Below, in pieces: positions 7,909 through 59,058 of a stretch of DNA of 64,000 bases; position 1 is the stretch's first letter, and each line of letters begins with the position of its first letter. The notes beneath the pieces are model-generated. The model was not told the DNA's origin and ran no database searches. It saw only the letters and a list, made by a program, of their open reading frames with translations. The stretch comes from Crambe crambe (Eukaryota; Porifera; Demospongiae; Poecilosclerida; Crambeidae), in assembly GCA_963924555.1 (NCBI GenBank), contig OZ004598.1:186001-250000 (forward strand). Direction: 5' to 3'. A program made the translations under genes and the position numbers.

Positions 7909-7962
<54 letters not shown>

Positions 7963-16330: not shown

Positions 16331-17227
16331 TTACTTAGGGACAGCCCAAGCACACGTGTGAGCTTCAATGTCCAATGCATTGACTCCTCTCTCAAGTTTG
16401 AACCATCCTTCTTCCCCCCATGCAGTTCCAAACGAATTTCGACCAATCCAATACTGGAGTCCCTTATCGGCAGTGACTCCCCAGCCGGTGATGACCACCA
16501 CGTGTGTTGTGTAGTTATATGCTACAGGATCCTGGATGACTCCATTGCCCGAGTACTTCTCGAAGGCATCACTGTGTGCATACACAGAGCAAGCCACAGG
16601 TCCTCTGCTATAGATCTCTGCTTTCATTGCCTCCTCACCTGTCACTGGTCCGTACTCCGACACGTAATACTTAGTCCCATTGATAAAGTCACAATGTCCA
16701 AATATGTCACATGACCGACACATCATCTCACCACATGGCAACTCCGCCCAGTAATTGTCATCTACTCCCATATAAGGAGAACAAGTGACATCTGTAATGC
16801 CGTTTTCTTTGATGAATGCATATGCCCCTAGAGCACTTCCTCCTCGACATGAGCCAAGATTGTCATCTTTGCAATCTAGAAGGACTTGAGGAGTAAGGGG
16901 GACTACAGTTGCGGGCAAATCGGGATCAGACTTCTGTTTGGAAATGATCATTCTATCGGTGAGGGCACCTACAGCAGCATGAGCCCAGCAGCTGCCACAT
17001 GGGGAAGGGAGGAACTGGTTGGTAGGGGGAGACAGAGGAGCTTTCTCTCTCCAGTCAAAGTGGTCAGGAACATCTGTAGAATGCAACAGCTCTCCGGGCA
17101 GTTTAGTAATAATGTGACTCGGTAGCGGAGGGGGAAGTTCGATGTAGCAACCTGTACTAGCTCTTTCAGGCTGGGAAGTCCAACAGAGCAGAGGCAGTGT
17201 TGAAAGAATATTTAACAGTAACTTCAT
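16331..17227 (-). CDS. CTSZ: Cathepsin Z/X-like cysteine protease, intronless
   Basis: A single 298-codon exon. Residues 1-24 are a signal peptide (MKLLLNILSTLPLLCWTS). A very short propeptide with a cysteine (GCYIELPPP) is typical of cathepsin Z. The mature papain-fold domain has the oxyanion Gln and catalytic Cys in NQFLPSPCGSCWAHA, the catalytic His in THVVVITGWG, and the catalytic Asn in YWIGRNSFGTAWGEEGW. The usual NSW motif is NSF here, a conservative change. LLDCKDDNLGSCRGG and CRSCDIFGHC fit family disulfide positions. A lysosomal or secreted carboxypeptidase role is expected from the family. It is unusual in this intron-dense window in having no intron. It is divergent (157-bp gap) from dynein gene A and convergent with TBC1D31. 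Confidence 0.93.
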   Translation of the reverse strand: MKLLLNILSTLPLLCWTSQPERASTGCYIELPPPLPSHIITKLPGELLHSTDVPDHFDWREKAPLSPPTNQFLPSPCGSCWAHAAVGALTDRMIISKQKSDPDLPATVVPLTPQVLLDCKDDNLGSCRGGSALGAYAFIKENGITDVTCSPYMGVDDNYWAELPCGEMMCRSCDIFGHCDFINGTKYYVSEYGPVTGEEAMKAEIYSRGPVACSVYAHSDAFEKYSGNGVIQDPVAYNYTTHVVVITGWGVTADKGLQYWIGRNSFGTAWGEEGWFKLERGVNALDIEAHTCAWAVPK

Positions 17228-17384
17228 GTTGTTGCGACATTAACGAATAATCACGTGGCTGACCCCGCCCATTATGTTTGTGGTGGTGGGCGGTAGCAAC
17301 AAAAGAGGGCGGATCTCGATTTTTGTTGTAGAAACCAACACGCCCTTCTATTCTTGGCGGTTGGTCCAATAAAGAAGCACAGTT
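17228..17384. promoter_or_regulatory. Bidirectional promoter between cathepsin Z and dynein heavy chain A
   Basis: A 157-bp gap between divergent start codons. It contains an E-box (CACGTG), a CCGCCC box, and a weak RFX X-box-like string GTTGCGACATTAAC next to the cathepsin start (9 of 14 positions match the palindromic consensus), as well as GGTAGCAAC. RFX control would fit a ciliary dynein but is only suggested. Confidence 0.35.
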
Positions 17385-20300
17385 ATGACAGACTCGACGA
17401 CTGAATCTGCCAATAAAGTGCAGATTCAGACTCGCACTGCCATCACACGCAAACACTTGCGTAGAGGCCAGACAGCAGCAAGATCCTCCAAGGGAAAAGT
17501 CGCTGTCACTGATTCCTTAAAGGAAAGACAGGTAGGTCTCAGATCATTGCAGAGAGTGGAGTAGGGCTAGTATAATCAGTTCTAGCTAGGCTAACTAATT
17601 ATTTTAAAAATTCAGCAAAAGTTGAGAGAAGAAAAAGAATCCAAAAGAGCAAGTTTGGATGCCCGACATCAACATATCTTTGCCACTGTAGCAACAAAGC
17701 TGCAGATACCAGATGATGAAGTGGAAGATTTCATTTTGGAAGGAAACCAGGTAAGACACTTTAATTTCAATGTTTCCTAGCTAGCTATGACCTCTTTGAT
17801 TTCATTTCAGCTTCAATACATGGACAGTTTCTTTGCTGCAAATGGATCAAGATGCCTGCTATTTTACTATGAAGAAATAACAAGTGGGGAAGGAGGTAAA
17901 CAGCATCTAGTTCTGTAGCATAGGTAAGTCATCGTCATATAATTGTGCAGATAAAAAGAAAGTGACAAAGAACCTTTATCTGACTGATGGCACTGAGGAA
18001 GCTTTTCCCGGAATGGGACTTTTCTTTCTTCGCACAACAGCTAAGGCAATCACAAGTGCCAATGTTGCTGCAGAAACTTTCTTCGGAGTACTGGAATCCA
18101 AAAATGGAGGTTTACTGGAGGCTATCGAGCTACTACTTTCTAATGTTTTCTTACCAGCTCTCAAGAAGCAGACCAATTGGGGCACACTCTCCTCTGATGC
18201 AAATGGCCACATGATGAAAGAAGCATTCCTCAACAAGCTTTCTTCATTTGTAGCAGTCCTATCCAATGCCCGTGCAAGCATAGCAGATGCTGTGAAACTC
18301 TCCCCCTGCACTAACGAAGCATTGGCTGCTGTCACATCACCAGCCGAGATCCTTGCAGCTGCCGGGAACCCTGAACTGGTGGAGGCAGCTGAGGATTGCA
18401 CACAGACCTGGTGCAAGGAGATTGAGCAGATCCTTACCAAGTCAGAGCAGATGAGGAAAGAATCGGACGATTTGGGGCCACGTGCAGAATTGGAGCATTG
18501 GAAGAAAAGAATGGCAAAGTTTGACTCACTCACATCATCCCTCAAAGATCCTCAATGCAGAGCCATCATTAATATCCTAGTGGCTGCAAAATCCAAAGTC
18601 CTTCAGGTACATGTGTATTGTACAATTTGATATGCATATATCAATGTTCTATATGCAGACATGGAAGAAATTGGACATCACTATCACAGACTTCACTAAT
18701 GAAGCTAAGGACAATGTCAAGTTCCTCTACACATTGGAAAAGTATTGCGAGCCTCTCTATAACTGCAATCCTGTAAGACGTCAATCGTGATGTCACTCAC
18801 TATCCAGTGCTAGCCATTTTCTTTTTCATTAGGTGACTATGCTGGAGGCCATTCCTGGACTGATTAATGCCATTCGTATGATCAACAGTTATTCTCGTTA
18901 CTACAACACTTCAGAGCGAATGACGGCCCTCTTTGTCAAAGTGACCAATCAGATGATCACAGCCTGCAGAGCCCACATCACCGACAGTGGCTACCACACC
19001 GTGTGGGACCAGGAGAGGTCAGAAGTGCTGAGGAAGCTGGCCAACTGCAAGAAACTGAACCAGGAGTATCAACTCTGCTTCCAGAGGACCAAAGAGAAAT
19101 TAAAAGATCACCCAGATGAAAAAGACTTCGATTTCTCAGAGATGTACATTTTTGGAAAATTCAACAATTTCTGCAGGAGGTATATTATAATTATTATTAG
19201 CTTCATAGAAAAGTTGCTAAATTGTTGTATTGGGAAGCCAATGTATATTTGTTGGGTAGGTAATACTGTACTGCATGCATGGTTGTATAATCTATGACAG
19301 ATGAGCAATGAATATTATACTTGCTAACTCTGTTGTTCAATCCCATTGCACGTCACAGGGTTGACAACATCATGGACTTCCTCCTGATCTCCCAGACCTA
19401 TTCAACTCTTGGCTTGTCTCGGATTGAAGGCATCGACACTTACCACGGTCGCTTCAGCTTGTTAGTGACCAACATAAAGAAGAAATCGTACGACCCATTG
19501 GAACACAGAAAGAAAGACTTTGATGTTGACTATGTAGACTTCAAAGCACAAGTGGTAGAACTGGAGGTATGATAATCTAGTTAGAGTCATGTGTGTGGAA
19601 TCAAGTAACTGGACGTGCATCTTCCAATTGACAGGTTCAACTACAGGCACATATGGAACAATTCTTTGAGAGTGCTAAATCTGTGCGAAGAGCCATTGAG
19701 TTCACCCAGCGTTTTGAAAGGCAAGTAGTTTGCAAAACCCCTTCTTTAAAATGATTATGCAATCACTGGGGATTTCCCTGTCATTATGGCTCTCTTAATG
19801 CAGACTCCAACTTCCTTGTTTGAACACTCTCGGGAAATGGAAATATGCTGTCAGTCTCTTTGTGAAGGACCTCCAGTTTGTGCAGGATGAGTATAATGAG
19901 CACAAGGAGAACCCTCCACTGGCCCGAAACCTTCCTCCTATATCAGGCAAGATTGCCTGGTCCCGCCAGCTGTATCACAGGATTGCAACCCCAGTGGCAG
20001 TATTCCAGAAGAACAAGCAACTGATGCAGCTCCCTGAGACAAAGAAGGCCATCAAGCACTATAACCGTCTTGCCCGAGTGTTGGTGGAGTATGAACTGGT
20101 GTTCCTCCAGGTCTGGACCAAACAAATTGATGCAGCCAAGGCCAGTATGAATAGCACTGTCCTGGTGAGGAATCCAGAAACTGAGGAACTTCTGGTCAAC
20201 TTTGACCCTAAGATCAACACGGTCCTCAGGGAGATAGAAGTGCTGACTAAGATGGGGCTGCAATTACCCCCTCAGGCTAAAGTCTTTGTTGGAAAGAAAG

Positions 20301-23300
20301 CAGAAATGAAGAAGAAGTTTGACTTAATTGAGGTATGACTTGGTCAGTAGATTCATTCACCCTCGTTCAATGAATTCGACAACCCATGCCTGATATTAAG
20401 ATAGCCTCGTACCCAGGCCCTGCTTTTTTTGTGGGGCGTGGAGGTCTGGGTACAAGCCTAGACAACCCCCTGCAATATAGAGGGCGTGTATGCATGATAT
20501 ATACTTCCACTTCTCCTGCAGACTGTAATGCTTAATAACAAGCGAGTGCGTGAGAAGATTCCTGAAGTTCTGGTCCCCCTGATGACCCCTCACTTTGAGA
20601 AGCTAGATGAAGTCCTGAGCCCAGGACTGACTCTTTTGCGCTGGACCTCCCTTAACTTGGCCCACTATGCAAGCTCGGTGGAGGCTGCTCTAGACACGCT
20701 GGAACTCCTGGCAGACAGGGTCACTGACCTTCTCACCATCCAGATTGAAGGAGTCTTAAAGGAGATCAGCTCCACCATCATCTGTGAACTTCCAGACAAT
20801 GACCCATGGACTGTGGATGAATTTGTGTCTAGAAACAAGGTCCGTGCAACTATTATAAATGTAACAAGGACCCCCTAATTATGTGAACATTGTAACAAGG
20901 ACCCCCTAATTATGTGAACATTGTAACAAGGACCCCCTAATTATGTGAACATAGATGTAACAAGGACCCCCTAATTATGTGAACATAGATGTAACAAGGA
21001 CCCCCTAATTATGTGAACATAGATGTAACAAGGACCCCCTAATTATGTGAACATTGTACATAGATGTAACAAGGACCCCCTAATTATGTGGACCCTTAAT
21101 TGAATGGCATAAGGGAGAGCTGAAGTGATCGTAATCATAGGGAAGGAATTCCAAAGCTAGAGATTCACAAAAATTAAGTGTAATAACTCCCCCCACCCCC
21201 ACCTCCTAAAAAAACAAGCTTTCCACTATAATAGCTGGTGGTAATAAGTTAATATCAAACATTTCAGACAATTTGTGACAAGACTGGGCCAAGACTCAAC
21301 ACTTTGTGTGAGAAGGTTGAAATGGCCATTTCCAGCCTTCTGACCTTCATCCTCCCAGAGGGAGAGAAAGAACTCCAAGAGGTTCTCAACACTACCCGTC
21401 CAGACTCTGCAGGCAAAAACACGCCAAAGAATATGTCAATGGTACACCTCTCTCCTGTAGAGGAAGAAGAGGAAGACTTACGTCCTGGGGAGGTAAGTCT
21501 CCAGCGACAACAACAGAAGAAGAAAGAACTGCACTCAGAGGCTCTGCTACTCCTTGAACAATACAACAAGCAGATGGTGATGGCACTGATTCGATGCACC
21601 AGGCGGACCCTGGAGGCAATCAAGAGACGAGTGGCTTCACCCTCAGCTATAGTGTATGGTGACTCTGCGGAAGATAAAAAGAAGCTTGATCACCGTCCTG
21701 CCATCAAAGTCAAGTTGATCCTTGCTGTGCCTCATGTAGGTTTGAAGCCAGCATTGGATGAGATCCAGGCATGCCTCACTACCACAGTTCAGAATGTCCT
21801 CAACGTGCACAAGTGTGTCATACAGTGGGGGCAGAAACGAAGTGCACCTGAACCTTACTTGCTTCATGGTGGTCCCTCAGGTTCGCTGATGGCACAGTCC
21901 AGTGTACTAGCAACTCAATCGGGTGTGCTGGGAGCAGCATCTGGTGTACTTGGAGCTCCATCTGGTGTACTTGCAGCTCAATCAGGTGTGCTGTCAGCAG
22001 CTTCTGGAGTTCTTCATGCAACTTCCTTCATCAATTCCAAGAAGCAGGAACTTAAGAACTATTACAAAGCCGTTTCTGATCACAAGGAGATCATCAAGCT
22101 TGTTGCTATCATGAACACGACAATCAGCTCGGCTAAAGTCCTTGTGACACAATCCTTGGAGCACTTCAAAGTCTACGAGCACTTGTGGATCACTGATCGT
22201 GATAAATACATGACCGAGTTCATGGAGAAGGAGCCAGATTTGTCCGAGTTTGAGGCTGAGCTCAAAGAGTACACTGCAATGGATGATGTCATAGCAGAGG
22301 AAGAAGACTTGCTCATCTGTGGCTCACTAGCACTGCAAACAGGTCAGGATAAGATACAGTGGATTGGGATAACAACAAGTTAATACTTTGACACATTACT
22401 ATGTACTATTCTCTCCATTATCACTATGCACAGAATAATATGTACTATTTGTTGACTTCATTTAGATGACTTGAAGATTGCCATGAAGGCTGAGGCAAAG
22501 AGCTGGAAAGTTCAGTTCGGGAGGAACATGAACACCAAGTACCTCTCACTCATGGACAAGATTGTGGAGATGGTAGACGACTACACCAAACGTCTCTCAC
22601 GTCCAATCAATGACCTGGATGATGTGCGTCAAGCCATGGCATCTCTCAAGGCTGTCAGGGAAAATGAAATCTTCATTGATTCTTCCCTAGATCCAATTGA
22701 GGTGAGTAGCTAGTTACTCTCCAAATAGATCACAGCATTAGGTAGAGTGGCTCTATAAATGTACATGCATATATATGTATACAGGAGTCTTATGCACTTA
22801 TGGTGAAGTACCAGATATCGGTTGCCAGTGAAGAAACTGAAAAGGTGGATACCATGCGTTTTGCATGGCAGAAACTCAACACACTTGCTGTAAGACTTCT
22901 TGTCATAATGATCATACTAGCTACCATGGCATGTGTGCTTCTTTAGACTGAGGTGCAGAACCACTTGATCAAGATTCAGAACTCTTTCAAAACTGATCTG
23001 CTCAGCAAGGTGGAGAACTTCAGGAGTGAGACAGATCAGTTCTACGAGTCCTATGCAAAAGTAAAGGCAGCGTTATGGGTATTAGCTGCGAGGTTATTAT
23101 TTATCCCATAGGAAGGGCCAATGGCAGAGGGGATTTCCCCCAGAGAGGCTAGTGAACGTGTCAACATCTTTCAGACTCAGTTCGATGAGTTGTGGCGTAA
23201 ATACCAGATTTACAGCGATGGTGAAGAGTTGTTTGGTCTTCCCGTAACTGACTATGCTGAGCTCTCTCGTATCAAGAAGGAGTTCAACCTGCTCCAGAAG

Positions 23301-26300
23301 CTGTACAGCTTGTTCAATGCTGTCATGGACTCTGTTGATGGTTACTATGAGATTTTGTGGGCTGAAGTTGACATAGAGAAGATAAACCAGGAGCTGTTGG
23401 ACTTTCAGAACAAGTAAGTATATCTGACCATTAAAAATGCTTATCATGTTTCACTGGACTTCTTTAGATGTCGGAAGCTGCCCAAGGCTCTCAAAGAGTG
23501 GCAAGCTTTCAACGAATTAAAGAAGAGGATTGATGACTTCAATGAAACATGTCCACTCCTGGAGATGATGTCCAACAAGGCCATGTTGGAGCGACATTGG
23601 AAGAGAATGGAGGAGCTGACTGGACACACCTTTGATGTGGAATCAGAGTCCTTTCAGCTAAGGAACATCATGGAAGCACCAATACTCAAGTTCCGGGAAG
23701 ACATAGAGGTAGGCACAAAATCACTTAACTATCTTCAAGAAGCTACTTGAAAATATCTAAATGGTTTGTTTTTTGTTGCTAGGATATTTGTATTAGTGCT
23801 GTAAAGGAGAAAGACATTGATACCAAGCTGAGGCAAGTGAAGGCAGACTGGGCAGTGCAAAACCTGGCCTTCTCTGGATTCAAGACTCGTGGTGAGCTGC
23901 TACTGAGAGGGGAGGAGGCCTCAGAGACCATTGGCTTGATGGAGGACTCACTCATGGTTCTTGGTTCTCTTATGAGCAACAGGTGAGTCGCTAGCTATGA
24001 TCATGACATCCACACAGGAATTTAAATTGCCCTTACTGATAGATACAATGCTCCTTTCAAGAAGGATATTCAGTTATGGGTGCAGAAGCTGTCAAACTCC
24101 ACAGAAATCATCGAGAATTGGTTGGTGGTCCAGAACCTGTGGGTGTACCTCGAGGCCGTGTTTGTGGGTGGAGATATTGCCAAACAGCTGCCCAAGGCAA
24201 GGGGGATGTCTTAACTAGTAGCTATCAATGTACTCACTATCATGTGATTCATGTCTTTCACACAGGAAGCCAAGCGTTTTCAGAACATCGACAAGTCATG
24301 GGTAAAGATCATGACTAAAGCCCACGAGACTCCCAATGTGGTGCAGTGCTGTGTGGGGGATGAGACACTGGGTCAGCTGCTCCCTCACTTGCTGGAGCAG
24401 CTGGAACTCTGTCAGAAGTCACTCACTGGCTACCTGGAAAAGAAACGCCTCGTCTTCCCAAGATTCTTCTTCGTCTCTGACCCAGCACTGCTGGAGATTC
24501 TGGGACAAGCATCAGACTCTCACACCATCCAGTCACACTTACTAAGTGTGTTTGATAACATCAAGACTGTCACTTTCCATGAGAAGGAGTACGACAGAAT
24601 CACTCACATACACTCCCGGGAGCCAGAAACCATAGAGGTGAGGACCCTCAGTAATCTTTATAGCAAATTTAGTTAGTTATTGAGTTACTAAGTTGTTCCA
24701 TGCAACCCTGTAACCCTGTAACCACAGAGCTTTGTAATCCAACCAAACTTTGAATCCTAAGTTGTTCTGTGCGTGATTTCCTTAACAATCACACCTCCCT
24801 CATGGTTGTGGTCAACCAAACTTTGAATCCACTGTATATAATACTGAGTCCTTAAAGAGGATGCCTTGGGCACTGACCTGAGAGGGTATAATAGGGTACC
24901 TTTAATTATACACCTAATTATTGTGCAGTTGGATAAGCCTGTGATGGCTCAGGGGAATGTGGAGAACTGGCTGGGAGCCCTCTTGAGGGAAGCTCTTCAT
25001 TCCGTCCATGTTGTTATCAGGAATGCACACATTGCCGTTGAGGATCCAAACATGGATTTGATCGAGTTCTTAAACACTTTTCCAGCACAGGCAAGTATTG
25101 TATGAGCCACGATAATACTTGGAGATTGGGTAATTTATTGTATGAGCTTGGAATGAGTGCTCGAGTCTCCCTAAACCATGGCAAACTGGTCCTACTAAAA
25201 TTATGGTAGCTCTAAACTAGGTACTGCTATGGTAGCTAGTGACATGTCATAATAATTTTGCCATGGACACAGATTGGGATTCTGGGGATCCAGTTTGTGT
25301 GGACCAGAGATGCTGAAATAGCTCTGAACAATGCCCGCACAGACAAGAAGATCATGAACAACACAGACCAGGTCTTCCTGGAGATGCTCAACATGCTCAT
25401 TGATGTCACCACTCAGAACCTCAGTAAAATTGAGCGTAGAAAGTTTGAAACGCTCATCACCATTCACCTCCATCAAAGAGATATCTTTCATGATTTGGTG
25501 AGTCTTAAGTACTACACTACATGCATATGTAATCATTACCATTCATAATCGATGTCATTTCAGGTGATTCTAAAAGTCAAAATTCCAACTGATTTCGAAT
25601 GGCTGAAGCAAAGCAGATTTTATTACAAGGAAGAGAATGAAAAAACTGTCATCTCCATCACAGATGTGGATTTTGTTTACCAGAATGAGTTTCTTGGCTG
25701 TACTGAGCGTCTGGTCATCACTCCACTCACAGATCGCTGCTACATCACTCTTGCTCAGGCCCTCGGCTTCTCCATGGGTGGAGCTCCTGCTGGTCCAGCT
25801 GGGACTGGCAAGACTGAAACGACTAAAGACATGGGAAGAGCACTGGGGAAGTATGTGGTGGTCTTCAACTGCTCAGATCAGATGGATTTCCGAGGCCTAG
25901 GCAGAATCTACAAGGGTCTAGCCCAGTCTGGGAGTTGGGGCTGCTTTGATGAGTTCAACCGCATTGAATTGCCAGTGCTGTCAGTGGCTGCCCAGCAGAT
26001 AGCAATTGTCCTAATGTGTAAGAAGGAGAAGAAACCAGAGTTCATCTTCACTGATGGAGATATTGTAAAGATGAATCCGGAATTTGGACTCTTTCTAACA
26101 ATGGTTAGTCATAGTAGGCACTAAGGTGAGATGATGTCATTAATTTTCTCTGCCCTTTCACGTAGAATCCTGGCTATGCTGGGAGACAAGAACTTCCTGA
26201 GAATTTGAAAATGAACTTCAGACCAATGGCTATGATGGTTCCTGATAGGAAGGTAAGAAAATCAGAATAATATAACTATGTAATCTGATCTTTATACTTG

Positions 26301-29300
26301 TTACCAGATCATCATTCGAGTGAAGCTTGCTAGTTGTGGTTTCCTCCAAAACATCGTGTTATCAGAGAAATTCTACACTCTGTACAAACTCTGTGAGGAC
26401 CAGCTCTCTAAGCAAGTTCACTATGACTTTGGTCTAAGAAACATCCTCTCAGTGCTCAGGACACTTGGAGCAGCAAAAAGAGCCAACCCTGAAGACAGTG
26501 AACAAACTACTGTCATGAGAGGTCTTCGCGATATGAACCTCTCGAAACTAGTTGATGAAGATGAGCCTCTCTTTATGTCTCTCATCAACGATCTCTTCCC
26601 TGGCCTCGTCCTGGAGAAGGCTGGGTATCCTGATCTAGAAGCAGCCATTGAGAAAAATGTGATTAGTGCGGGTCTGATCAACCACCCATCGTGGATTCTC
26701 AAGCTTATCCAGCTCTTTGAGACAGAGAGAGTGAGACATGGCTTCATGGTGCTTGGACCAACTGGTACCGGCAAGACCAAGTGCATCATTACTCTCATGA
26801 AAGCACTGACAGACACTGGGACACCACACAGAGAGTGGAGGATGAACCCCAAGGCCATCACTGCATCCGAAATGTTTGGTCGTCTGGATGTGGCAACCAA
26901 CGACTGGACAGATGGCATCTTCTCAACCCTCTGGAGGAGATCACATAAGCTAAAGAAAGGAGAGCATGTGTGGTTAGTGATGGATGGGCCAGTGGACACC
27001 CTCTGGATTGAAAATCTCAACAGTGTGCTTGACGACAACAAGACCCTCACCCTCGCCAATGGAGACAGGATCCCCATGTATCCCGACAGCAAATTAGTCT
27101 TCGAGCCAGACAATGTCGACAATGCCTCACCTGCCACAGTGTCTCGTAACGGGATGGTCTACATGAGCTCTTCAGGGTTGGAGTACCATCCCATTATGGA
27201 GGGCTGGTTGCTCCATATGATCGCAGAGAAGAAGATCACCCAGCAGGAATCAGACATCCTTCTGGAGCTTTACGAGTCAACTTTCATCGACCTTTACCGT
27301 TTTTCTACAATCAACCTGAATGCCAAGATGAAGTTACTAGAGTGCAATTTCATCTGGCAATCTTGTCAGATGATGGAGGGTCTCATTCCACAGAAGGAAG
27401 AGAACACTTCCATCTCCAAGAGCTACCTGGAGAGGCTCTACATCTTTTCTCTGATGTGGAGTGTGGGTGCTTTGCAGGAGCTGGATGACAGAGCCAAGAT
27501 GGAGGAGTGGATGAGAACAAACACAGAGCTAGATCTCCCACCGGTTGAAGAAGACTCAGGTGACACCATTTTTGAGTTCAAGGTGGACAAAGAGGGGAAC
27601 TGGGAGCACTGGAAGAAACACGTGGAGGAGTATGTCTACCCAAAAGACAGCACTCCACAATATGCTTCCATCTTAGTCCCCAATGTGGACAACGTGCGTA
27701 CAGACTTCCTCATCCACACCATCGCCAAGCAGTCCAAGGGAGTGCTGTTGATAGGGGAACAGGGCACGGCTAAAACTGTCATCATCAAGGGCTACATGTC
27801 TAAGTATAACATCGAGGAGCACCTTGGGAAAAACCTGACCTTCTCCTCAGCCACACAGCCTGGTCACTTTCAGAGAGCTATTGAGAGTTATATCGACAAG
27901 CGTGTGGGTAGTACATATGGCCCACCTGCTGGAAAGAAGTGTACTGTGTTCATTGATGACATCAATATGCCCACCATTAATGAATGGGGTGACCAGATCA
28001 CCAATGAAATTGTGCGTCAGTTGATGGAGATGAAAGGAATCTACAGCCTCGAGAAGCCAGGAGACTTCACACACATCCAAGACTTGCAGCTTATGGCAGC
28101 CATGATCCACCCTGGAGGAGGTAGAAATGACATCCCTTCTCGACTCAAGCGACAATTCTCGATCTTCAACTGCACACTTCCTTCAAATGCCTCTATCGAC
28201 AAGATCTTTGGCGTAATAGGTCTTGGCCATTTCTGCAAAGAGAGAGGATTTTCTACAGAAATTAGAGAGCTAGTTGAAAAGTTGATATTTGTCACCAGGA
28301 TCTTGTGGCAACACACAAAGGTGAAGATGCTTCCAACACCGGCTAAATTTCACTACGTTTTCAACTTGAGAGATCTGTCTCGAATCTGGGAAGGCATACT
28401 GCACATTGATTCAGATACTTGCAAAGACTTGGGTACAGTGTTTGGGCTGTGGAAACATGAGTGCACTCGAGTCATTGCTGATCGTTTCACCAGTGCAGAA
28501 GACAAAGAATGGTTTGACAAGTGCATCTACAAAGTTGTAGAGGAAGAGCTGGGCCCAGAACACAGAGACATGGTTCCCGAAGAGCCTTACTTTGTGGACT
28601 TCTTAAGGTTAGTGTTATATAGCACAAATTAGGATTGATAGGTCAAACTGCTGTCTTTAATTATTTAGGGACCCTCCTGAACCCACTGGAGATGAACCAG
28701 ATGATTTTGAGTATGAAGCTCCAAAGATTTATGAACCTGTAAGAAGACAGATTTCTTAGTGGCTATAGCTGCTAAATTATCTGATGTATTCTAAATTGAC
28801 AGATTCCACCTTATGCTGAGTTGATGGAACGAATGACCAACTTCATGACCCAGTTCAATGAGACTGTACGAGGATCTGGAATGGACCTGGTGTTCTTCAA
28901 GGATGCTATGGTCCATCTGATAAAAATTTCTCGCATTATCCGGACAGATTGTGGAGCAGCTCTCCTAGTGGGAGTGGGAGGTTCTGGGAAACAGAGTCTC
29001 ACTCGACTAGCCTCCTTCATTGCAGGCTACAAAACTATCCAGATCCAACTCTCCCGGTCCTACAATGCCAACAACCTGTTGGAAGACTTGAAGATCCTGT
29101 ATCGAATAGCTGGAGAGCAAGGCAAAGGTGTTGTATTCCTCTTCACTGACAATGAGATTAAAGATGAAGGTTTTCTTGAGTATATCAACAATGTGCTCTC
29201 ATCAGGAGAAGTCTCCAATTTGTTTGCTCGTGATGAAATCGATGAAATAAATTCTAACCTTATTCCAGTCATGAAGAAAGAATTCCCCAAGAGACCACCA

Positions 29301-32300
29301 ACTCCAGAAAACCTCTACGATTATTTCCTCAGCAGAGCAAGGAAAAACCTCCATGTCGTACTCTGCTTCTCTCCCATTGGAGAAAAGTTCCGCAGTAGAT
29401 CCCTGAAATTCCCTGGTCTGTTCAGTGGCTGCACAATGGATTGGTTCAGTCGTTGGCCTAAGGATGCTCTGATTGCAGTGGCTGAGCACTTTGTAGGATC
29501 ATTTAACATCGTCTGCTCTGAAGAGACAAAGGAGCAAGTGGTGCAGACTATGGGAGTCATCCAAGACTTTGTGGCAGAATCCTGTTTGGAGTACTTTGAG
29601 AGGTTCAGGAGAGCCACTCATGTGACACCAAAGTCCTATCTCTCCTTCATCAACGGGTACAAGTCCATTTATAACTCACAGAAGAAGAACCTGGATGAAC
29701 TTGCAGATAGGATGAATACTGGATTGGAGAAGCTGCTGGAAGCCAGTGAGAGTGTCGCCCAGCTGTCAAAGGAACTAGAAGTGAAGGAGAAGGAGTTGGT
29801 TGTAGCCAATGCAGAGGCTGAGGAAGTACTGAAAGAAGTAACCACTAAGGCTCAAGCAGCAGAAAAAGTGAAGGCATCTGTCCAGGTAGTCAAGGACAGA
29901 GCTCAAAAAGTAGCTGATGGCATTTCCCAAGACAAAGTTGTGGCTGAAGGCAAGCTTGAATCTGCACGACCAGCCTTGGAACAAGCCGAAAAGGCACTGC
30001 AGACCATCAAGGCTGCAGACATATCCACAGTTCGCAAACTGGCAAATCCCCCCCACCTCATCATGAGGATCATGGATTGTGTGCTCCTCCTCTTTCAAAA
30101 ACGTCTCAATCTCAACTCACTGGACAAGGACAAGCCAGGTCCAAAGCCTTCATGGGGGGAATCCCTGAAGATGATGAGTCAGACTGGATTTCTCGCAATG
30201 CTACAGAGTTTCCCGAAAGACACCATCAATGATGAGACAGTGGAGCTGATGCAACCTTACTTCGACATGGAGGACTACAACCTTGAAACAGCCAAGAGGG
30301 TGTGTGGCAATGTGGCTGGTCTGTGTTCATGGACGCAGGCCATGAGTGCTTTCTTTTCAGTTAACAAAGAAGTGCTTCCCTTGAAGGCTAATCTTATCAT
30401 CCAGGAAGGTCGCTATGAAAAAGCTGCAGCTGAATTGGCTGAAGCCAACGCCAAATTAGAAGAAAAAGAGAAAGAAGTGGCAGTGGTGAGAGCCATGTAT
30501 GAAGAAGCAATGACCAAGAAACAAACACTCCAAGATGATGCTGACACCTGTGTGAGGAAAATGAAAGCAGCATCGGCCTTGATTGAGGGACTCAGCGGAG
30601 AAAAAACCCGATGGACTGAACAGAGCAAGGAATTCAAAGCTCAGATTAATAGGTATGTTAATCATATAGTGAGGCATGACTCACTGACATGTACATAATG
30701 AATGCTCCACTAGATTGGTTGGTAACGTGCTGCTTGCATCTGGTTTCCTGTCGTACTGTGGTCCTTTCAACCAGGAGTTCCGGGCACTTCTCATAAATCA
30801 GTGGAAGAAGGAACTTGGGAATCGGAAGGTTCCTTACGATGAGAAGCTGAACCTGACTGACATGTTGTCCGACAGTACCACAGTTGGAGAGTGGAACTTG
30901 CAAGGATTGCCCAACGATGAACTCTCAGTTCAGAATGGAATTATCGTAACCAAAGCCACCCGTTTCCCTCTGCTGATAGACCCACAGGGTCAGGGGAAGA
31001 ACTGGATCAAAAACAAAGAGTCTGGTGGCGAGTTAAAGATCACTACTCTCAACAATAAATACTTTCGGCCACATCTGGAGGACTGTTTATCACTTGGCAC
31101 CCCTCTGATAATAGAGGATGTGGAGGAAGAGTTGGATCCTTGTCTGGACAATGTTCTGGAGAAGAACTTCATCAAAGCAGGGTCAACTTACAAGGTAGTT
31201 AAGAAACAAGCACATTTAGGCTATGGCTGAAAAAATGTTTCTTTGATATCTTCTTTTTTTTTTCTCCATGTTAATGTAGGTTAAAGTAGGTGACAAGGAA
31301 GTGGATGTGATGAAAGGATTCGCCTTGTATATCACCACTAAACTACCAAATCCTCGATACACTCCTGAAGTAAGATTATGACCACATGCATGCAACTCAT
31401 GTCATGTGACCATCTAAGACAGGCTGCTTGTGTCATGTGACTATTTCACTGTATCTTGACACATTAATAGAGAAAAAAATTTGAGCTTCATGTTGATGTA
31501 TTATAGGTCTATGCTCGTACTGCCATCATCGACTTCACTGTGACCATGAGAGGTCTGGAAGACCAGCTGCTGGGGAGAGTCATCCTGACAGAGAAGAATG
31601 AACTGGAGTCCGAGAGGGTGAAGTTGATGGAGGAGGTGACTGAAAACAAGAAGAAGATGAAAGAGTTGGAAGATAGTTTGCTCTATCGCCTCACTACCAC
31701 CAAAGGCTCACTTGTAGATGACGAATCATTGATTGAGGTGCTGAGAACAACAAAGAAGACAGCAGAGGAGGTGACACACAACCTTCTAGTGGCTGCAGAG
31801 ACAGAGGTGAAGATCAACACAGCAAGAGAGGAATACAGACCTGTTGCTGCCAGAGGCTCTGTCCTGTACTTCCTGATCATGGAGATGTCCATGGTCAACG
31901 TCATGTACCAGACATCTTTGCAGCAGTTCTTGGGGATCTTTGACATATCCATGGCTCGTTCAGCTAAGTCTCCCGTCACAGCTAAGAGGATCACCAACAT
32001 CATAGAGTACCTGACCTTTGCTGCATTCAGCTACTGCAGTCGAGGTCTTTATGAGGAACACAAGTTCCTCTTCACTCTCTTGCTGGCCTTGAAGATTGAC
32101 ATGCAGAAGGGCTATGTGAAATACCATGAGTTTGGGACATTGATCAAGGGAGGAGCTGCTCTTGATCTGAAGGCGTGTCCTCCAAAGCCGGCCAAATGGA
32201 TCACAGACATGACCTGGCTGAACCTTGTGGAGCTGAGCAAGCTTCCTCAGTTCTCTGAGATTCTCTCCCAGGTGGGGAGGAGTGACAAACTGTGGAAGGC

Positions 32301-34890
32301 ATGGTTTGACACTGAGGCTCCTGAAGAAAGTCCAGTACCAGACAACTACCACTCTCTTGATACATTCCGCAAACTATTGTTGATTAGGTATGCAGGGGGG
32401 GGGGGGGGGGGGGGGTGGGGGGCTCCATAGGAAGAATAATCTATTTAGTATATGCTTGTTCCTCTGCCCCTGCATTAATATGTGTACCCTCAGGGTATTA
32501 GCTACAACCCTTATGGACTTTCATAGTTCTTACCTTTTCCTTTAACAGATCCTGGTGTCCAGATCGTGTTCTCCCACAAGCACTCAAATACATCTCAGAG
32601 TCAATGGGTGTGAAGTATGCTGAAGGAGTTATTCTCAACGTTGAGGAAATGTGGAAGGAATCGAATAAGCGAGTTCCTATGGTTTGCTTCCTTGCAATGG
32701 GCTCTGATCCCACCAATACAATTGACAATCTATCCAGAAAACACAATCTCTGTAAGTCAAGAAAATAATTTCACAACTCGCAAAGTAATAATATCCATGC
32801 TCATACAATTATAAATCATTATGTTCATTTTTGCCTCAGATTTTGGTTCAGTTTCCATGGGCCAAGGACAAGAAGTTCATGCACGAAGACTTCTTAATCA
32901 ATGCCAGCAGCAAGTATGTTTAACAAAAGGCCTTTTAAGTGGCACCACTTCCATCTTATTCCTTTCACAGGGTGGGTGGGCTTTGCTTCAGAACACTCAC
33001 TTGGCTCTGGACTTTCTGGATGAATTGCTAGCAAATGTGCTTGAAACAGAGAACATGGACGACAGCTTCCGTCTGTGGCTCACCACTGAAGTCCATCCCA
33101 AGTACCCGATAAACCTCCTGCAGGCCTCCATCAAGTACACCTTTGAGCCTCCACAAGGAGTCAAGGCCGGATTGAAGAGGACTTACACCAACACCAGTCA
33201 AGAGAACTTGGACTACTCCAATCTCCCTCAGTGGAAGCCAATGTACTACACTGTGGCCTTCCTCCACACCACAGTCCAGGAGAGACGCAAATTTGGGCCT
33301 CTCGGTTGGAACATTCCATACGAGTACAACCAGGGTGACTTCAACGCCAGTTCCCAGTATGTGATGAACCTCCTTGATAACCTTGACTTGAAGCAGGTTA
33401 GTGAAAAGGTGTCACCTTAAAGAGCTAGTAAGAGTATTGGTCCATCTCTGTAGGGAGTGTCATGGGGAGCAGTGCAGTACATGATTGGGGAGATCCAATA
33501 TGGAGGGAGAGTGACAGATGACTATGACAAGAGACTGCTCAACACCTATGCTAGGGTAAAGTTCATCATGTGACTTCTGTTTATTAGCATACTATAAACT
33601 TACCACCCCTTACTACTTAGCTGTGGTTCTTTGACGGCATGTTCAAACCTACCTTCAAGTTCTATAAGGGTTACAGCATTGCAGTATACAAGACTATAAA
33701 GGAATACATGGACTACATAGACTCTCTGCCACTAGTGGACACTCCCGAGATCTTCGGACTTCATCCCAATGCTGACATCACGTAATCACAAGAAGTGTGT
33801 GGTATACATACATAACACTTCTTCTTTGTTGTCCTTACAGGTACCAGAGCAACACTGCCAACAAGAGTCTGGACACCATTCTCTCCATCCAGCCCAAGGA
33901 CAGCTCCAGTGGTGGGGGTGAGACCAGGGAGAGCATTGTGTACCGCCAGGCTCAGGAGATGTTGGACAAGCTTCCTTCAGACTACATCCCACACGAGGTG
34001 AAAGCTCGGCTCCAGAAGATGGGGGCCATAGCTCCCATGAATATCTTCCTGAGACAGGAGATCGACCGCATGCAGAGGGTGATCAGAATTGTCCGTAGCA
34101 CTCTGAAGGACCTCCAACTGGCCATAGATGGTACTATCATCATGAGTGAGGTCAGTGAAAATTGGTTGTATAAGTAGCTGACTTTATTTTAATTATCTCC
34201 CTCTTCAGAACTTACGTGATGCTTTGGATAACATCTACGATGCAAAGGTGCCCAAAATATGGGGAAAGGTAAGTCATACTGCACAGCACAATCATAGGAA
34301 GTCTCTGAGTGTGTGTGATAGGTGTTCTTATAATAATAACTATGCAGATTTCTTGGGATTCTTCCACTATTGGATTCTGGTACACAGAGCTGCTCGAGAG
34401 AGACACTCAGTTTCGTAGCTGGGTGTTTGAGGGTCGTCCCAAGTGCTTCTGGATGACAGGCTTTTTCAATCCACAGGGCTTTGTGACGGCCATGAGGCAG
34501 GAGGTGACACGAGCACACAAAGGCTGGGCCTTGGACAGTGTCATTGTGCACAATGAGATGACCAAGATGATGAAAGAAGAGATAACCTCTGCCCCAGGTG
34601 AAGGCGTATACGTATATGGTCTATACTTGGATGGAGCCGGCTGGGACAAGCGAAACAGCAAGCTGGTGGAACCAATACCTAAAGTATTGTTTATGCAGAT
34701 TCCAGTGGTGCACATCTTTGCTGTCAACATGAAGGATTATGTCAACGACCCAAAGCTTTATATCTGCCCAGTCTATAAGAAGCCACGTCGCACTGACCTC
34801 ACTTACATCACAGCACTGAGTCTCCGCAGCAACACGAGTCCAGACCATTGGATCTTGAGGGGCGTAGCCCTCCTTTGTGATACTAAGTAG
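17385..34890 (+). CDS. DNAH5/8-like: Axonemal outer-arm dynein heavy chain, DNAH5/DNAH8 type (copy A)
   Basis: Complete gene with 37 exons and about 4,660 codons, close to human DNAH5 (4,624). Exon starts: 17385, 17616, 17811, 17951, 18659, 18833, 19359, 19635, 19804, 20522, 21268, 22466, 22785, 22947, 23112, 23468, 23783, 24043, 24266, 24929, 25273, 25564, 26166, 26308 (to 28607), 28669, 28803 (to 30652), 30714, 31280, 31507, 32549, 32840, 32971, 33454, 33621, 33841, 34209, 34348. The tail and linker precede six AAA modules. P-loops: AAA1 GPAGTGKT (25792-25815), AAA2 GPTGTGKT (26755-26778), AAA3 GEQGTAKT (27754-27777), AAA4 GVGGSGKQ (28971-28994), all intact. The stalk and microtubule-binding domain are at about 29690-30650. 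The C-terminus ends [10 protein letters not shown]. It drives ciliary beating as an ATP-powered minus-end motor. Three introns use GC donors (after 19720, 24196, 25090). Confidence 0.96.
20834..21090 (+). repeat. Minisatellite in dynein A intron, 7 copies
   Basis: Seven near-identical copies of a 31-36 bp unit beginning TGTAACAAGGACCCCCTAAT lie between about 20860 and 21090, at the start of the 428-bp intron 20840-21267. The core AACAAGGACC resembles the exon/intron border AACAAG|GTCC at 20834-20843. Confidence 0.92.
21893..22020 (+). other. In-frame 7-residue repeat (A.SGVL.) within dynein A
   Basis: Inside the 1,075-bp exon the protein reads a run of six heptad-like units with the core SGVL ([21 protein letters not shown] and similar). 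It is inserted in the stem/linker region between conserved segments (CVIQWGQ and [15 protein letters not shown]-like). Dynein B has an unrelated Ser/Thr-rich linker here. It is probably a flexible, recently expanded loop. Confidence 0.8.
32395..32422 (+). repeat. Poly-G run (21 G, T, 6 G)
   Basis: The run starts eight bases into a dynein A intron, directly after donor GTATGCA. It could form a G-quadruplex in the pre-mRNA. Sequencing length error is possible. Confidence 0.85.
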
Positions 34891-35004
34891 ATTTTTTACT
34901 TCTATACTCAAAAGGACTTAGTTTTTCGTTTATTTTATATTTACCTGTTTTGCTAGTATACAGTATCTTATCAGGTACGGATCGTTCGATTCCTTTGATT
35001 TGAT

Positions 35005-35013
35005 TTTCCCGCC
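35005..35013. promoter_or_regulatory. E2F-like site upstream of the CCDC142-like gene
   Basis: TTTCCCGCC lies 87 bp upstream of the proposed ATG at 35100, within a short GC-rich island (CCGCCGCGCC). A short upstream open frame starts at an ATG near 35036 and stops before the main ATG. Confidence 0.35.
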
Positions 35014-35099
35014 GCGCCATACATCTACGTTGCTATGCAACAGTGCGCGCGCAAGAAAATAATAAAGAAAGTGTGCTTCAATTAGAAATCCACCCATCA

Positions 35100-37389
35100 A
35101 TGGATCTCACTTCTCATTTGCGCTATCTGCTATCAGTTTTACGTGACAGATCATCCAGTCTCAGTTATCAATCCAGTATTCAAACACTAACTTCCTTGAA
35201 CGAACTAATATCTTCAACTTTCCGAAAAGTAGGCGTGGACGGAGTAAAACATTACTCCATACTTCTCCTGAGAAAGATCCTTTTGACTACCTTTGAACTC
35301 TTGTGTGTATCAACAGAGTTGATACAAGACATTCAATACTCCTATGTGGAGTGTAAGAGCATCTTGGTTGCAGTGGAAGAGTTTAACAGCCATTCCGTCT
35401 CCATCTCTTCTGGCCAAACCTTTCCTGGAAGAAGAAAATCAATATCCTTTCCAACATCATTACATAAAAGTAGTTTAACTATTGAATTTTCTGATCTCGT
35501 TGATGTGTACATAACATCGCATGTGGAATGGCTGTCTTCACTTATATTTGATCAACCATCTGTGGAGAATCTACTCCACCTTGCATGCTTTGAGAAGAGC
35601 TTTGCCAGAGGCTTTCTAGGGATTGTAGCTACTTACACTTCAATGTTGAACATTGGGATTCGGGATTCAGGGAAGCGAAGGGTCTATGTCTCTGAGGAAA
35701 TGTTTGCTCTCAATTCTCTAAACACCAGCTGGTTGGACTGCCTAGTTCCAGGGGCTCAGTCAGAACCACTGAGGCTAGCCTGCAGGGACATCCTGAACAT
35801 TCTTTGGGGGAAAGTGGCTGAGAGCTTACTCTCTAGAGCTCAACCCATATTGCAAGGAGGCAGAATTGTGGTGAAGTTGATACCTCAGCTCACTGAGGCA
35901 TCCCGGCATGCAGGTTGTTTTTTATTCAGATTTGTGTAATGTAGTAATTAGCTATAATCATTTTAGATTTGGAGTCATACCCAATGGTAATTCGATGCAT
36001 GAAGCTTTTTGTATCTGAGTGTACTGAAAGGCATTGTCTTGCAAAGTGGGACATTGGTAAGTAGCTATATAGGTAGTGGTAATTGTGCCATACTTCAGAT
36101 TGTATCCATGCAGCTTTCCAAGACTTGCTGGTTGCTACACTGGCAGCATATCGAAAGAGCTATAGAGTATTCAAGGCCCAAACTCCAGCATTTAATGCAG
36201 TGTATGCAAGCACTTTATCAATCTTAGGAGATCACACTCTTAACCAAATCAGAGACCTTACTACTCCAGTGGATATTAACTCTTACAAGTCTGTTCTGCA
36301 CCATATAGATGTCCTCAAGCACTCCCTGTCTCTTTCTTGCTCCCTCAATGCCTCAGCCAAATACATCTCCTTCACACTCTTGCAAAGTCTAAGCAGCAGC
36401 ATTTCTTCATGGAATATCTCAAATTTGGCTTGGCTGGTGTTCAATGAAGCTCCAGTCATCACACATGCTCTGACAAGATGTGTGGCTCTCTTGATTTATG
36501 CTACTAGTCCAAAGCTATCTTTCCCACCTTGTTCCAGCCTGCATAGCCTTGAGTGTGCTGGCAGAGATGTATGTACTTCACTCCATGAAACAATCACATT
36601 TTTAAAGGTATGTATAATTATTGCTGTGATGTCATCAGGATAACCTAATAGTAAGCTAGCTATGTACCTTTTATCCAGGAGACACTGGAAGATGTCTACA
36701 CAAGATTCCAAGATATATGGGCAGGAAAATGTATACAGTTGCTGAATTCATCCTTCCCCCAAGCAAGTCACTGGAAATCTCTTGGCAGAAAAAGTAATGT
36801 TCTATTCTATTGATAACTACATAGTAAATTATGATTATTTCGTCTGTAGGAGCAGTACGTCATAGTAAACCTAGCCACTACTGTGAGCTTGTGGTTGAGT
36901 ATTTGCTGTTTCCAGTGGTGGAAGCTGGTGCTAAGCTCCCCACACTTCCACAGAAGACTTTTGTGTACCTGTTGGTGGCCATCTTCTACAATGAATACCG
37001 TGGACTTATCACATCCAATAAGAAACTCTACACGTAAGCTGGAATGGAGCAATCTCTAGAATCTGATATACTATAAATCAATTATATACAGTGCTTCTTC
37101 TGGTAGACAGCTGCTCACTGATCATCGCTATATCCATCAATGGCTTACCTCAAGTGACCGAAATCTTGATGACACAACGCTCCAATTGTTAACAAGAGCA
37201 CCCGTCTTCACAGAGGTGGAAGAAGGACTGCTATTTGTGTGTGGCACAGCAGCCAATGTGGACATGACAGACTCGGTTGACATCCCCAGAGGACCTCTTG
37301 ATATTTCCCTACCTTTTCAACATGCTCCTATTCTTAAGAAAACTGCTTGGCATTTAAAACAAGACTGGCAACGGGTTGTTTCAGAATAG
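35100..37389 (+). CDS. Probable CCDC142-like protein
   Basis: Six exons: 35100-35913, 35967-36056, 36114-36607, 36679-36793, 36850-37033 and 37092-37389 (TAG), giving about 665 residues. The start is the first in-frame ATG (MDLTSHLRYLLSVLRDRSSS). The protein is predicted almost entirely alpha-helical and lacks a signal peptide or membrane segment. The C-terminal third resembles what I recall of CCDC142: HYCELVVEYLLFPVVEAGAK, an alanine/tyrosine helix (YLLVAIFYNEYRGLI), then a short segment ending in a leucine-rich helix (EVEEGLLFVCG). That assignment is by remembered layout, not by alignment. CCDC142 has no well-defined function. The gene sits between two oppositely oriented dynein genes, 210 bp after A and 132 bp before the stop of B. 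Confidence 0.6.
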
Positions 37390-37412
37390 TCCTAATCATG
37401 TGATCATCTAAA

Positions 37413-37465
37413 TTTTGTTTGTTTGTTTGTTTTTTTGTTTGTTTGTTTGTTTGTTTGTTTGTTTT
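37413..37465. repeat. (GTTT)n microsatellite
   Basis: About 53 bp of GTTT repeats with one T-rich interruption, in the convergent gap between the CCDC142-like gene and dynein B. Confidence 0.95.
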
Positions 37466-37521
37466 AGATGTGAGATTAATTATTATTTTTTCAATAATCA
37501 ATGGGGGAATATTCTCATTAG

Positions 37522-40500
37522 TTATTTGATGTCACAGAGGAGAGCCACTCCCCTCAGAACCCAATGTTCAGGAGGATGGTTGCTACGCAAACTCAGTGCT
37601 GTGATGTAGGTGAGGTCAGTGCGACGTGGTTTCTTGTAGATTGGACAGACATAGAGCTTGGGGTCATGGACATAGTCCTTCATGTTGACAGCATACAAGT
37701 GCACCACTGGAATAGGGACAAACAGCACTTTTGCTGGTGGTTGTATCAGCTTACTAGACCTCCTGTCCCAGCCTGCACCATCCAAGTACAAACCATGAAT
37801 ATAAACTCCCTCATGAGGAGAGTGAGTTATTTCTTCTTTCATCATCTTGGTCATCTCATTGTGCACAATGACACTGTCCAAGGCCCAGCCTTTGTGTGCT
37901 CGTGTCACCTCCTGTCTCATGGCTGTCACGAAGCCCTGTGGATTGAAGAAGCCTGTCATCCAGAAGCACTTGGGACGACCCCCAAACACCCAGTTACGAA
38001 ACTGAGTGTCTCTCTCCAGCAGCTCTGTGTACCAGAATCCGATCGTAGAAGAATCCCAAGATATCTAGTAGAAGAGCCAAAAAAAAAATTTAAAAAAATC
38101 CCACCGTTTATTCTACACATTGTAGCTATATAGCTACTGGCTGCATACCTTTCCCCATATTCGTGGTACTTTTGCATCATATATGTTGTCCAAAGCATTA
38201 CGCAAGTTCTGCAAGTAAGAAAAATCTCATGAATGTGGTAGGAATAGCTACTGTTTTGATGACTGACCTCACTCATTATGATGGTTCCATCTATGGCCAG
38301 TTTTAGATCCTTCAAAGTGTTACGGACAGTAGTGATCACCTTTTCCATGCGGTCGATCTCCTGTCTCAGGAAGATGTTCATAGGAGCAAGGGCCCCCATG
38401 CTCTGCAACCTCTCTTTCACTTCATGTGGGATGTAATCTGAAGGCAGCTTGTCCAACATCTCCTGGGCTTGGTGGTACACAATGCTCTCCCTGGTCTCAC
38501 CCCCACCACTGGAGCTGTCCTTGGGCTGTATGGAGAGAATGGTGTCCAGACTCTTGTTGGCCACATTACTCTGGTACCTGTAAGGACACAGATGAGTAGC
38601 CATTACAAAAAACTGATTTAGACTTTACGTGATATCAGCATTGGAATGAAGTCCAAAAATCTCAGGAGTGTCCACTAGTGGCAGAGTGTCAATGTACTCT
38701 AAGTACTCCTTCACAGTCCTATGGACAGGGATGCTGTAGCCTTTATAGAACTTGAAGGTAGGTTTGAACATTCCGTCAAACAGCCACATCTGAGGTGAGG
38801 AAAAACACACAATAATATAGCCAGCTAGCTAGCAGCTATTGGGGGAAGAGGATTGTATTGTTGCCCTTACCTTGGTATAAGTGTTGAGCAGCCTCTGATC
38901 ATAGTCGTCTGTCACTCTCCCTCCATATTGGATCTCCCCAATCATGTACTGCACTGCTCCCCATGCAACTCCCTATGCAGATAGTGCAACCAGCAATTAA
39001 TGACATTGTGATAGCTAGCTACAAGGAAGTTTGTGCAATAGCTACAATTGTAGCTATCTACAATTTTTGACATGGCTAGCTACGTACCTTTCTAAAGTCT
39101 AGGTCATCCATCAGATTCATGATGTATTGGGAACTGGCATTGAAGTCACCCTGATTGTACTCATAGGGGATGTTCCAACCAAGTGGCCCAAATTTGCGTC
39201 TCTCCTGGACTATTGTGTGGAGGAAGGCCAGAGCATAGTACACTGGTTTCCACTGAGGATGACTGGTGTAATCCAAGATCTCTTGGCTAGTGTTGGCATA
39301 GGTTCTCTTCAAACCAGCCCTCACACCCTTTGGAGGTGCAAAGGTGAACTTGATGGAGGCTTGAAGGAGGTTTATGGGGTACTTGTTGTGGACTTCAGTG
39401 GTGAGCCACAGGCGGAAGGTGGGGTCAATTTTACTGATTTCTGTCTCGAGAACAGTCTTCAACAACTCCTCTAGGAAGTCCAGAGCCAAGTGAGTGTTCT
39501 GTAGCAAAGCCCAGCCACCCTGCATGAAAATGAAGATATGTATAAATAATGCAGCAAATTTATGGTATTAAAGTATATGGCTACTTGTAGCTGGCACTGA
39601 GCAATCAGTCTTCGTGCATGTACTTCTTGCCCTTGGCCCATGGAAACAGATCCGAAGGCTGAAATGAAAAAATATAGAAAGTTTTAAAGCATGCCACTCT
39701 CACAGAATTGATGGTCATTCTACTTACTCAAGTTGAGCTTCTTTGCCAAAGCTTCAATATTATTCGTTGGGTCAGATCCCATGGAGAGGAGACAAATCAT
39801 GGGAGTGCGGATGTTAGATTCATTCCACATTTCTTCGATGTTTAGAATAACACCCTCTGCATATTTGACTCCCATCCTCTCAGAGATGTACTTCATTGCC
39901 TGAGGCAGGACCCGATCAGGACACCATGCCCTGATCATTAGGAGCTTTCTGAATGTATCGAGTGCTGCATTGTATCCATCTGGAATGGGATTTTCTTCAG
40001 GGGAATCAGAATCAAACCAAATTCTCCATGTCTTATCATTGCGACCAATCTGTTTAAGGAATGAAAATGTTTATGCTTGCCTTAGGGCATGTTGCAATCT
40101 ATCTACTTAGAATTCCCTATAATAGTTAGACACTGAGACCGAGGGATCTACGGCATTTAAGAGACCCAAAGGCCCTGAGGGTCTCTTAAATGCCGTAGAT
40201 CCCATTGGTCAAGGTGTCTAACTAATTTAGACCATAGCCATCTAGTTTAGCTCTAGGAAGTGCGAGAAAACAGTTTTATAGCTACTTGTTCAAGCAGGAA
40301 AAACGCCATTGCTATCTGCATCCACAGTAAACACTCCATAGGAATGACCATGCCCTTAGAGGCGGGGCACTAAGTGAGCTACTTAGTGGCTGCCATGCTA
40401 AGTGAAAGCAGCAGGCACTGACCAATCAGATTGCTCCATTTGAATCAACTATAGTCTAAGTTATGGTGGCATGGTGGGAAATTTATGTTTTGAAAAATAT

Positions 40501-55819: not shown

Positions 55820-59058
<3,239 letters not shown>

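Follow-up and report, generated by a model that had tools for sequence, protein, structure and literature searches.

A block of 317 bases that is nearly identical in two neighbouring dynein heavy chain genes (A and B) of the sponge Crambe crambe is in all likelihood an interlocus (non-allelic) gene conversion tract between convergent, inverted DNAH5-type paralogues, a reading to which we assign a probability of about 0.94. Gene conversion is the best explanation because silent divergence between A and B is low in the block, an intron is shared within it, a third paralogue (C) is diverged there and lacks that intron, and the right border is abrupt. The claim of conversion, as drawn from the DNA sequence, carries no statement on which copy was the donor, on non-reciprocity or on absolute age. 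A preliminary description of this DNA had proposed recent homogenisation of one short block. Our analysis supports that interpretation as right yet too narrow: the tract is real, but it is one of many in a mosaic covering about 39% of the aligned codons.

Two convergent dynein heavy chain genes

The window, i.e. the entire 64,000-nucleotide stretch analysed (C21:186001-250000 in a genome of 143 Mb and 119 contigs), contains a convergent pair of dynein heavy chain genes, both with introns.

17929..34890, + strand: gene A, DNAH5-type axonemal dynein heavy chain, 34 exons modelled (Pfam and PDB DNAH5)
34891..37521, no strand: spacer between the 3' ends of A and B, 2.6 kb (from gene models)
37522..54823, − strand: gene B, convergent paralogue, 31 exons modelled (Pfam)

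The 5' end was left unmodelled in both genes, and one small exon near 22945-23060 was omitted from the model of gene A. The gene-finder output, which included a two-base exon and read-through introns, was corrected by hand, and the codon alignment was assembled separately for each exon. The resulting A–B alignment comprises 4338 codon pairs, with an agreed C codon for 4005; comparisons with C omit 92 codons with disagreeing positions, plus unmapped ones.

A Pfam scan of 10 ORFs, which did not include the C-terminal ORF of gene A, identified DHC_N1 and AAA domains in gene A ORFs and Dynein_C in one gene B ORF; a DHC_N1 match in another gene B ORF fell below the curated cut-off. In PDB searches, DNAH5 chains were the best solved relatives for three stretches of gene A (the second-best chain listed bears another protein's name yet has dynein length). 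With DNAH5 as top match and the DHC_N1, AAA and Dynein_C domains, the two genes are predicted to encode outer-arm dynein heavy chains of the DNAH5 type. Gene C, a third DNAH5-like gene of the same genome, is located on contig C12 (about 51.8-67.7 kb, − strand). A 601-base query against the genome itself gave a listing of two places, A and B, and plasmid records contained nothing similar. For duplicated flanks around A and B, there was no DNA match with the low-complexity filter on, and two short translated matches.

Several other elements were observed in the window. The spacer contains a 311-residue open frame without Pfam match (35004-35939, + strand). Directly upstream of gene A, on the opposite strand, lies a papain-family cysteine protease ORF (16331-17239, − strand), which presumably resembles cathepsin Z, and a Kunitz/BPTI domain closes an open frame at 1806-2600 (− strand). 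Repeats at 1320-1474, 7911-7972 and 58773-58873 match themselves and each other at two-base steps, with 1361-1461 identical to 58773-58873 across 101 bases. Short local direct repeats are present at 20855-21093 (inside a gene A intron), 49278-49578, 6005-6165 and 48346-48440.

A near-identical block with an abrupt right border

18652..18968, + strand: very probable conversion tract, A copy; 5 mismatches to B, A–C strongly diverged, dynein tail
53524..53840, − strand: very probable conversion tract, B copy (sequence comparison with A)
18773..18832, + strand: tract intron of gene A, 60 bases, GT-AG, 59/60 identical to B, absent from C
53660..53719, − strand: tract intron of gene B, 60 bases, pairs with A 18773-18832

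The near-identical block of the preliminary description was recovered by ungapped comparison of A 18652-18968 with B 53840-53524, with mismatches at five of the 317 bases (A 18769, 18791, 18886, 18934 and 18958). Position 18791 is the sole intronic difference, and the four exonic mismatches are all silent; the coordinates and counts given in the preliminary description are upheld. The A copy consists of the final 7 bases of an intron, a 114-base exon, the 60-base intron and the opening 136 bases of the next exon; this second exon aligns with DNAH5 residues 365-478 of a PDB chain.

Sharp divergence had been claimed on both sides of the block, and on the right it is evident: the tract ends at A 18968, the first mismatch is at 18969, and 23 of 100 bases mismatch beyond the edge. 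On the left, the tract takes in the final 7 bases of the upstream intron, the point from which the two sequences can be aligned, so that border sharpness is informative mainly on the right. As described previously, the upstream introns differ in length (52 bases in A, 258 in B); they are unalignable. In the upstream exon, A–B mismatches number 11 and 17 in the final two steps of 100 bases, and an adjacent low-divergence stretch in the hidden Markov model (HMM) analysis described below, 18508-18606, carries replacements and may represent a separate, older event.

Both silent and non-coding identity are far higher in the tract than in its surroundings. The tract window contains 4 mismatches in 78 silent-informative codons, a value equalled in 1 of 5000 shuffles of all 3148 such codons; this figure is conservative, since the pooled rate includes other tracts. 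Conversion as such is upheld by the comparison with C, the intron and the border, whereas 'recent', as the event had been called, applies in a relative sense only, on the basis of the 4/78 codons.

The third paralogue as a control for constraint

Paralogue C, being encoded in the same genome, was used as a control for constraint. Within the tract, codons for the same amino acid differ at 4/83 positions between A and B, at 26/54 between A and C and at 25/54 between B and C; amino-acid differences number 0/83 for A–B and 29/83 for A–C. Gene C has no intron at the position of the tract intron. The silent divergence of A from C and the lack of the intron in C indicate that silent sites of the tract are free to change and that the likeness is private to A and B, i.e. 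it is not explained by constraint. An ultraconserved element was rejected on the same grounds. It is true that the protein is conserved at the tract, with the PDB DNAH5 chain aligning through the second exon; however, the idea that a splicing element, RNA structure or overlapping code keeps block and intron alike is scarcely credible given the strong silent divergence of C in the same codons, the missing intron, the abrupt right border and the like behaviour of many other A–B blocks.

The absence of the tract intron from C also led us to consider an intron gain that then spread via conversion. Of the 29 gene-A intron positions with mapped C sequence on either side, however, 10 lack additional C sequence within 8 codons, so the absence of this particular intron is not singled out as a gain.

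Introns inside and outside the tract

In the models, 27 of the 33 gene-A introns have a single gene B counterpart and were compared. One pair is alike, namely the tract intron. The remaining 26, previously described as unalignable by eye, show identities that do not exceed about 0.66 relative to the longer intron; in a null set of 702 non-homologous intron pairs the maximum was 0.71 and the 95% point 0.639, which three of the 26 exceed. One of these 26 introns, A 22890-23111, contains the exon missed by the model, so that its comparison is not clean. The gene-A introns without a B partner are 20840-21462, 21817-22047, 22343-22465, 25498-25563, 31195-31279 and 32388-32548, and gene B introns without an A partner include 40050-40533 and 49810-49947. 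In the models, gene-A introns 19721-19803 and 24197-24265 begin with GC and their B counterparts with GT.

Partnerless introns are of interest with regard to cDNA- or RNA-templated conversion, in which spliced transcripts of one gene would have patched the exons of the other. The six could be cDNA losses, intron likeness is confined to tract 18652-18968, and the tracts described below are mostly exonic. Yet at no position of the six do low-divergence codons lie on either side of the intron site, intron heterology is a simpler account of the exon bias, and tract 18652-18968 carries its intron in both copies instead of missing it. The shared intron refutes cDNA templating for this tract unless the template was unspliced RNA, and we regard such templating as very unlikely overall.

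A mosaic of low-divergence segments

Silent divergence between A and B varies along the pair from near zero to saturation. An earlier HMM that took replacements as observations biased the in-tract amino-acid identity and was replaced by a silent-only HMM. The latter delineated 27 low-divergence segments comprising 1671 of the 4338 codons (about 39%), several of them short and with weak posterior support; its log-likelihood was -1702.6 with two rates versus -1890.2 with one. Four segments span an intron position, and the intron is alike only in tract 18652-18968. In the permutation analysis, 10 segments passed the 95% limit at a mismatch penalty of 6 and three at a penalty of 3, one of the latter merging 25624-30035. 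Segments of gene A (all on the + strand), together with the region that has none, are listed below.

19007..19096 (B 53485-53396): low-divergence HMM segment, silent 4/29; weak, posterior at most 0.86
19868..20089 (B 52635-52414): low-divergence HMM segment, silent 5/67; not individually significant
20333..23708: mid-tail without tracts; no HMM segment, A, B and C equidistant
24308..24508 (B 48227-48027): low-divergence segment, silent 2/63; HMM and permutation segment score
25633..26001 (B 47293-46925): low-divergence segment, silent 9/114; HMM and permutation segment score
26303..26468: B-identical segment from the last 5 intron bases onward; preceding intron not common to A and B
26241..26466 (B 46670-46445): HMM span of the 26303-26468 segment, silent 0/57
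26869..27078 (B 46042-45833): low-divergence HMM segment, silent 6/63; not individually significant
27307..27801 (B 45604-45110): low-divergence segment, silent 10/148; HMM and permutation segment score
27871..28209 (B 45040-44702): low-divergence segment, silent 9/100; HMM and permutation segment score
28884..29087 (B 43929-43726): low-divergence segment, silent 6/66; HMM and permutation segment score
29136..29720 (B 43677-43093): low-divergence segment, silent 12/185; HMM and permutation segment score
29811..30032 (B 43002-42781): low-divergence HMM segment, silent 6/63; not individually significant
30844..31023 (B 41818-41639): low-divergence HMM segment, silent 8/54; not individually significant
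31078..31179 (B 41584-41483): low-divergence segment, silent 0/33; P about 0.04
31645..32097 (B 41160-40708): low-divergence segment, silent 12/136; HMM and permutation segment score
34375..34575 (B 38037-37837): low-divergence HMM segment, silent 5/56; not individually significant

At fourfold degenerate sites, A and B differ at 53/684 positions inside the low segments and at 358/667 outside; the corresponding values for A and C are 318/521 and 351/520. The amino-acid difference between A and C is 0.247 inside tracts and 0.406 outside. The tracts therefore sit where the protein is more conserved, which weakens amino-acid identity as evidence for conversion; conversion itself would favour conserved protein regions.

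Over 611 codons of the mid-tail, amino-acid differences are 0.558 (A–B), 0.549 (A–C) and 0.549 (B–C), and this equidistance indicates that the A/B duplication is old. Elsewhere, we observed that the A exon 24043-24196 shares 94% amino-acid identity with C, B–C identity being 75% over a slightly longer span, and that on the linker side the A–C difference (0.212) is smaller than the A–B difference (0.235). A recent inverted duplication, whose diverged stretches would have come in afterwards from other paralogues or alleles, would agree with the homogeneously low divergence of the tracts. It would, however, require replacement of the 26 other compared introns and of the 53 of 66 exon edges at which the low-divergence posterior is below 0.5 as well, and C, being equidistant in the mid-tail, was no donor; we therefore give this scenario very little credence. 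Even less can be said for an error of assembly or polishing that copied sequence between the genes. The tract is known from one assembly, but the contig measures 5.67 Mb, the window is without N, and the 21 larger segments hold 111 silent differences, with only two of the 21 holding none.

Tract placement, introns and GC content

Among motor codons, the share lying in tracts rises with distance from the nearest intron, from 19% (<45 bases) through 32% (45-100) and 48% (100-200) to 65% (>200), and the A–C amino-acid difference in the same bins is 0.29, 0.32, 0.26 and 0.28. This scarcity near introns has a circular-shift P of 0.008, a statistic that leans largely on two very long exons. The clean tracts 18652-18968 and 26303-26468 start at a 3' splice site, and the clean tract 31078-31179 starts inside an exon. 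The scarcity of tracts near introns fits diverged introns that probably act as barriers to conversion. Tract density is 0.37 in the N-tail, 0 in the mid-tail, 0.27 on the linker side, 0.64 in AAA1-AAA4, 0.29 on the stalk side and 0.35 at the C-end; distance between the partners was considered as a cause and does not explain these regional densities.

Silent-site GC, which is commonly but not obligatorily raised by conversion, is elevated in the tracts of both genes when these are pooled, rather than in tract 18652-18968 taken alone. Inside versus outside tracts, fourfold GC is 0.503 versus 0.442 in A (difference +0.061, CI 0.016 to 0.111, shift P 0.015), 0.501 versus 0.422 in B (+0.079, 0.033 to 0.126, 0 of 1000) and 0.452 versus 0.469 in C (-0.016, -0.067 to 0.036, shift P 0.675). 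The rise in A and B matches what GC-biased repair predicts.

In the mechanism that we propose, sequence of one gene would have replaced that of the other over an exon, the short intron behind it and a portion of the exon that follows, the tract ending at the unalignable upstream intron and within the downstream exon. The process was presumably homology-directed repair of a break, templated by the other copy on the same chromosome, the sister or the homologue. Around 20 tracts would make up the mosaic that includes this block, and long motor exons hold the majority of them. Heterology barriers would probably be formed by the diverged introns, so that exon interiors continue to exchange whereas the edges of exons, the introns and the mid-tail grow apart.

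Timing of the tracts

The larger tracts, 21 in all and each offering 19 or more silent sites, contain 111 mismatches at 1463 silent sites (about 8%), at rates that are indistinguishable (chi-square 20.0, 20 df, P 0.46), and mismatches inside the larger tracts show no clumping. In simulations that included the HMM step (150 runs each), a value no greater than the observed one was obtained in 74% for one age, in 4% and 7% for uniform mixtures of ages and in 0.7% for an exponential mixture. Such similar silent divergence suggests one episode or an equilibrium, and could reflect a single event, a burst or a balance between mutation and conversion.

One possibility, which we hold tentatively and consider less probable than its competitors together, concerns timing within gene conversion: all tracts would have arisen at once, either through one patchy conversion event (a long heteroduplex, or template switching, with patch repair) or through a short burst. 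The indistinguishable rates, the unclumped mismatches and the best fit of one-age simulations favour it. On the other hand, a modest spread of tract ages is still compatible with the data (P 0.078, power 0.53), and a conversion–mutation equilibrium predicts the same homogeneity. Models with two, three and four rates gave BIC values of 3437.5, 3441.8 and 3496.7. The three-rate model contains a layer at 38% silent mismatch where A–C is at 57%; although BIC slightly prefers two rates, the C control suggests that this layer consists of older events, which would imply earlier conversions. Finally, a single heteroduplex over 16 kb would be hard to form across unalignable introns, and since this seems unlikely, an equilibrium or a burst is favoured over it. 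That the roughly 20 tracts stem from one patchy exchange between two inverted 17-kb genes, rewriting some 5 kb of exon sequence, is improbable. If true, an old pair would have been reset in part within one generation or a brief burst, with unrelated introns skipped and just one carried along.

Comparison with known systems and implications

In humans, RHD and RHCE form an inverted pair whose 3' ends face each other and which undergoes frequent conversion. The A/B pair resembles it in both respects, but RHD/RHCE is younger and its introns are alignable.

Mammalian BMP8A/BMP8B, DDX19A/B and TUBG1/2 are two-copy pairs described as mosaics in which some regions are concerted and others diverged (PMC2720389). 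BMP8A/B is inverted, converted fragments cover exons and introns, and GC rises in the concerted regions, significantly at third positions in DDX19A/B and TUBG1/2 and not in rodent Bmp8a/b (PMC2720389). The dynein pair shares the mosaic, the inversion seen in BMP8A/B, exon–intron fragments and the GC rise. It differs in that the mammalian fragments include several introns and several species were compared (PMC2720389), whereas here one intron pair and one genome are concerned. In GOT1p1/GOT1p2 of the copepod Tigriopus californicus, high-divergence regions persist despite apparent ongoing conversion (PMC3728101), as diverged regions do beside conversion in A/B; that study used population data, whereas ours concerns one genome and a much longer gene. 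For Caenorhabditis paralogues, including adjacent inverted hsp pairs, conversion between adjacent genes has been described in either orientation, tail-to-tail too, along with tracts that reach into short introns, and the idea has been put forward that diverged introns may impede conversion (PMC3966223). The A/B pair is similar in its adjacent tail-to-tail conversion and in a tract running through a short intron, and differs in that tract scarcity near introns was measured within one gene pair. The same article cites same-orientation pairs as converting more often (PMC3966223), which, A and B being inverted, counts against conversion here.

Among the papers listed, judged on titles and abstract openings, which does not prove absence, we recognised none that deals with conversion among genes for dynein heavy chains and none that describes a matching case from a sponge. 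That inverted paralogues undergo conversion, and that it can run through short introns, is already known; the present pair is a clear and unusually patchy new example, in which an uninvolved third copy is seen together with tracts, a GC rise and apparent barriers. It offers, within one pair, a view of how introns that have diverged may keep conversion out.

An old duplicate takes on a young appearance through patchwork conversion. A–B identity in the motor region is 87% over two long exons and would misdate the duplication, because the mid-tail is as diverged as the third paralogue. The mid-tail of dyneins sets partners and docking. That the motors stay alike while the mid-tails separate is a pattern bearing on possible selection against conversion.
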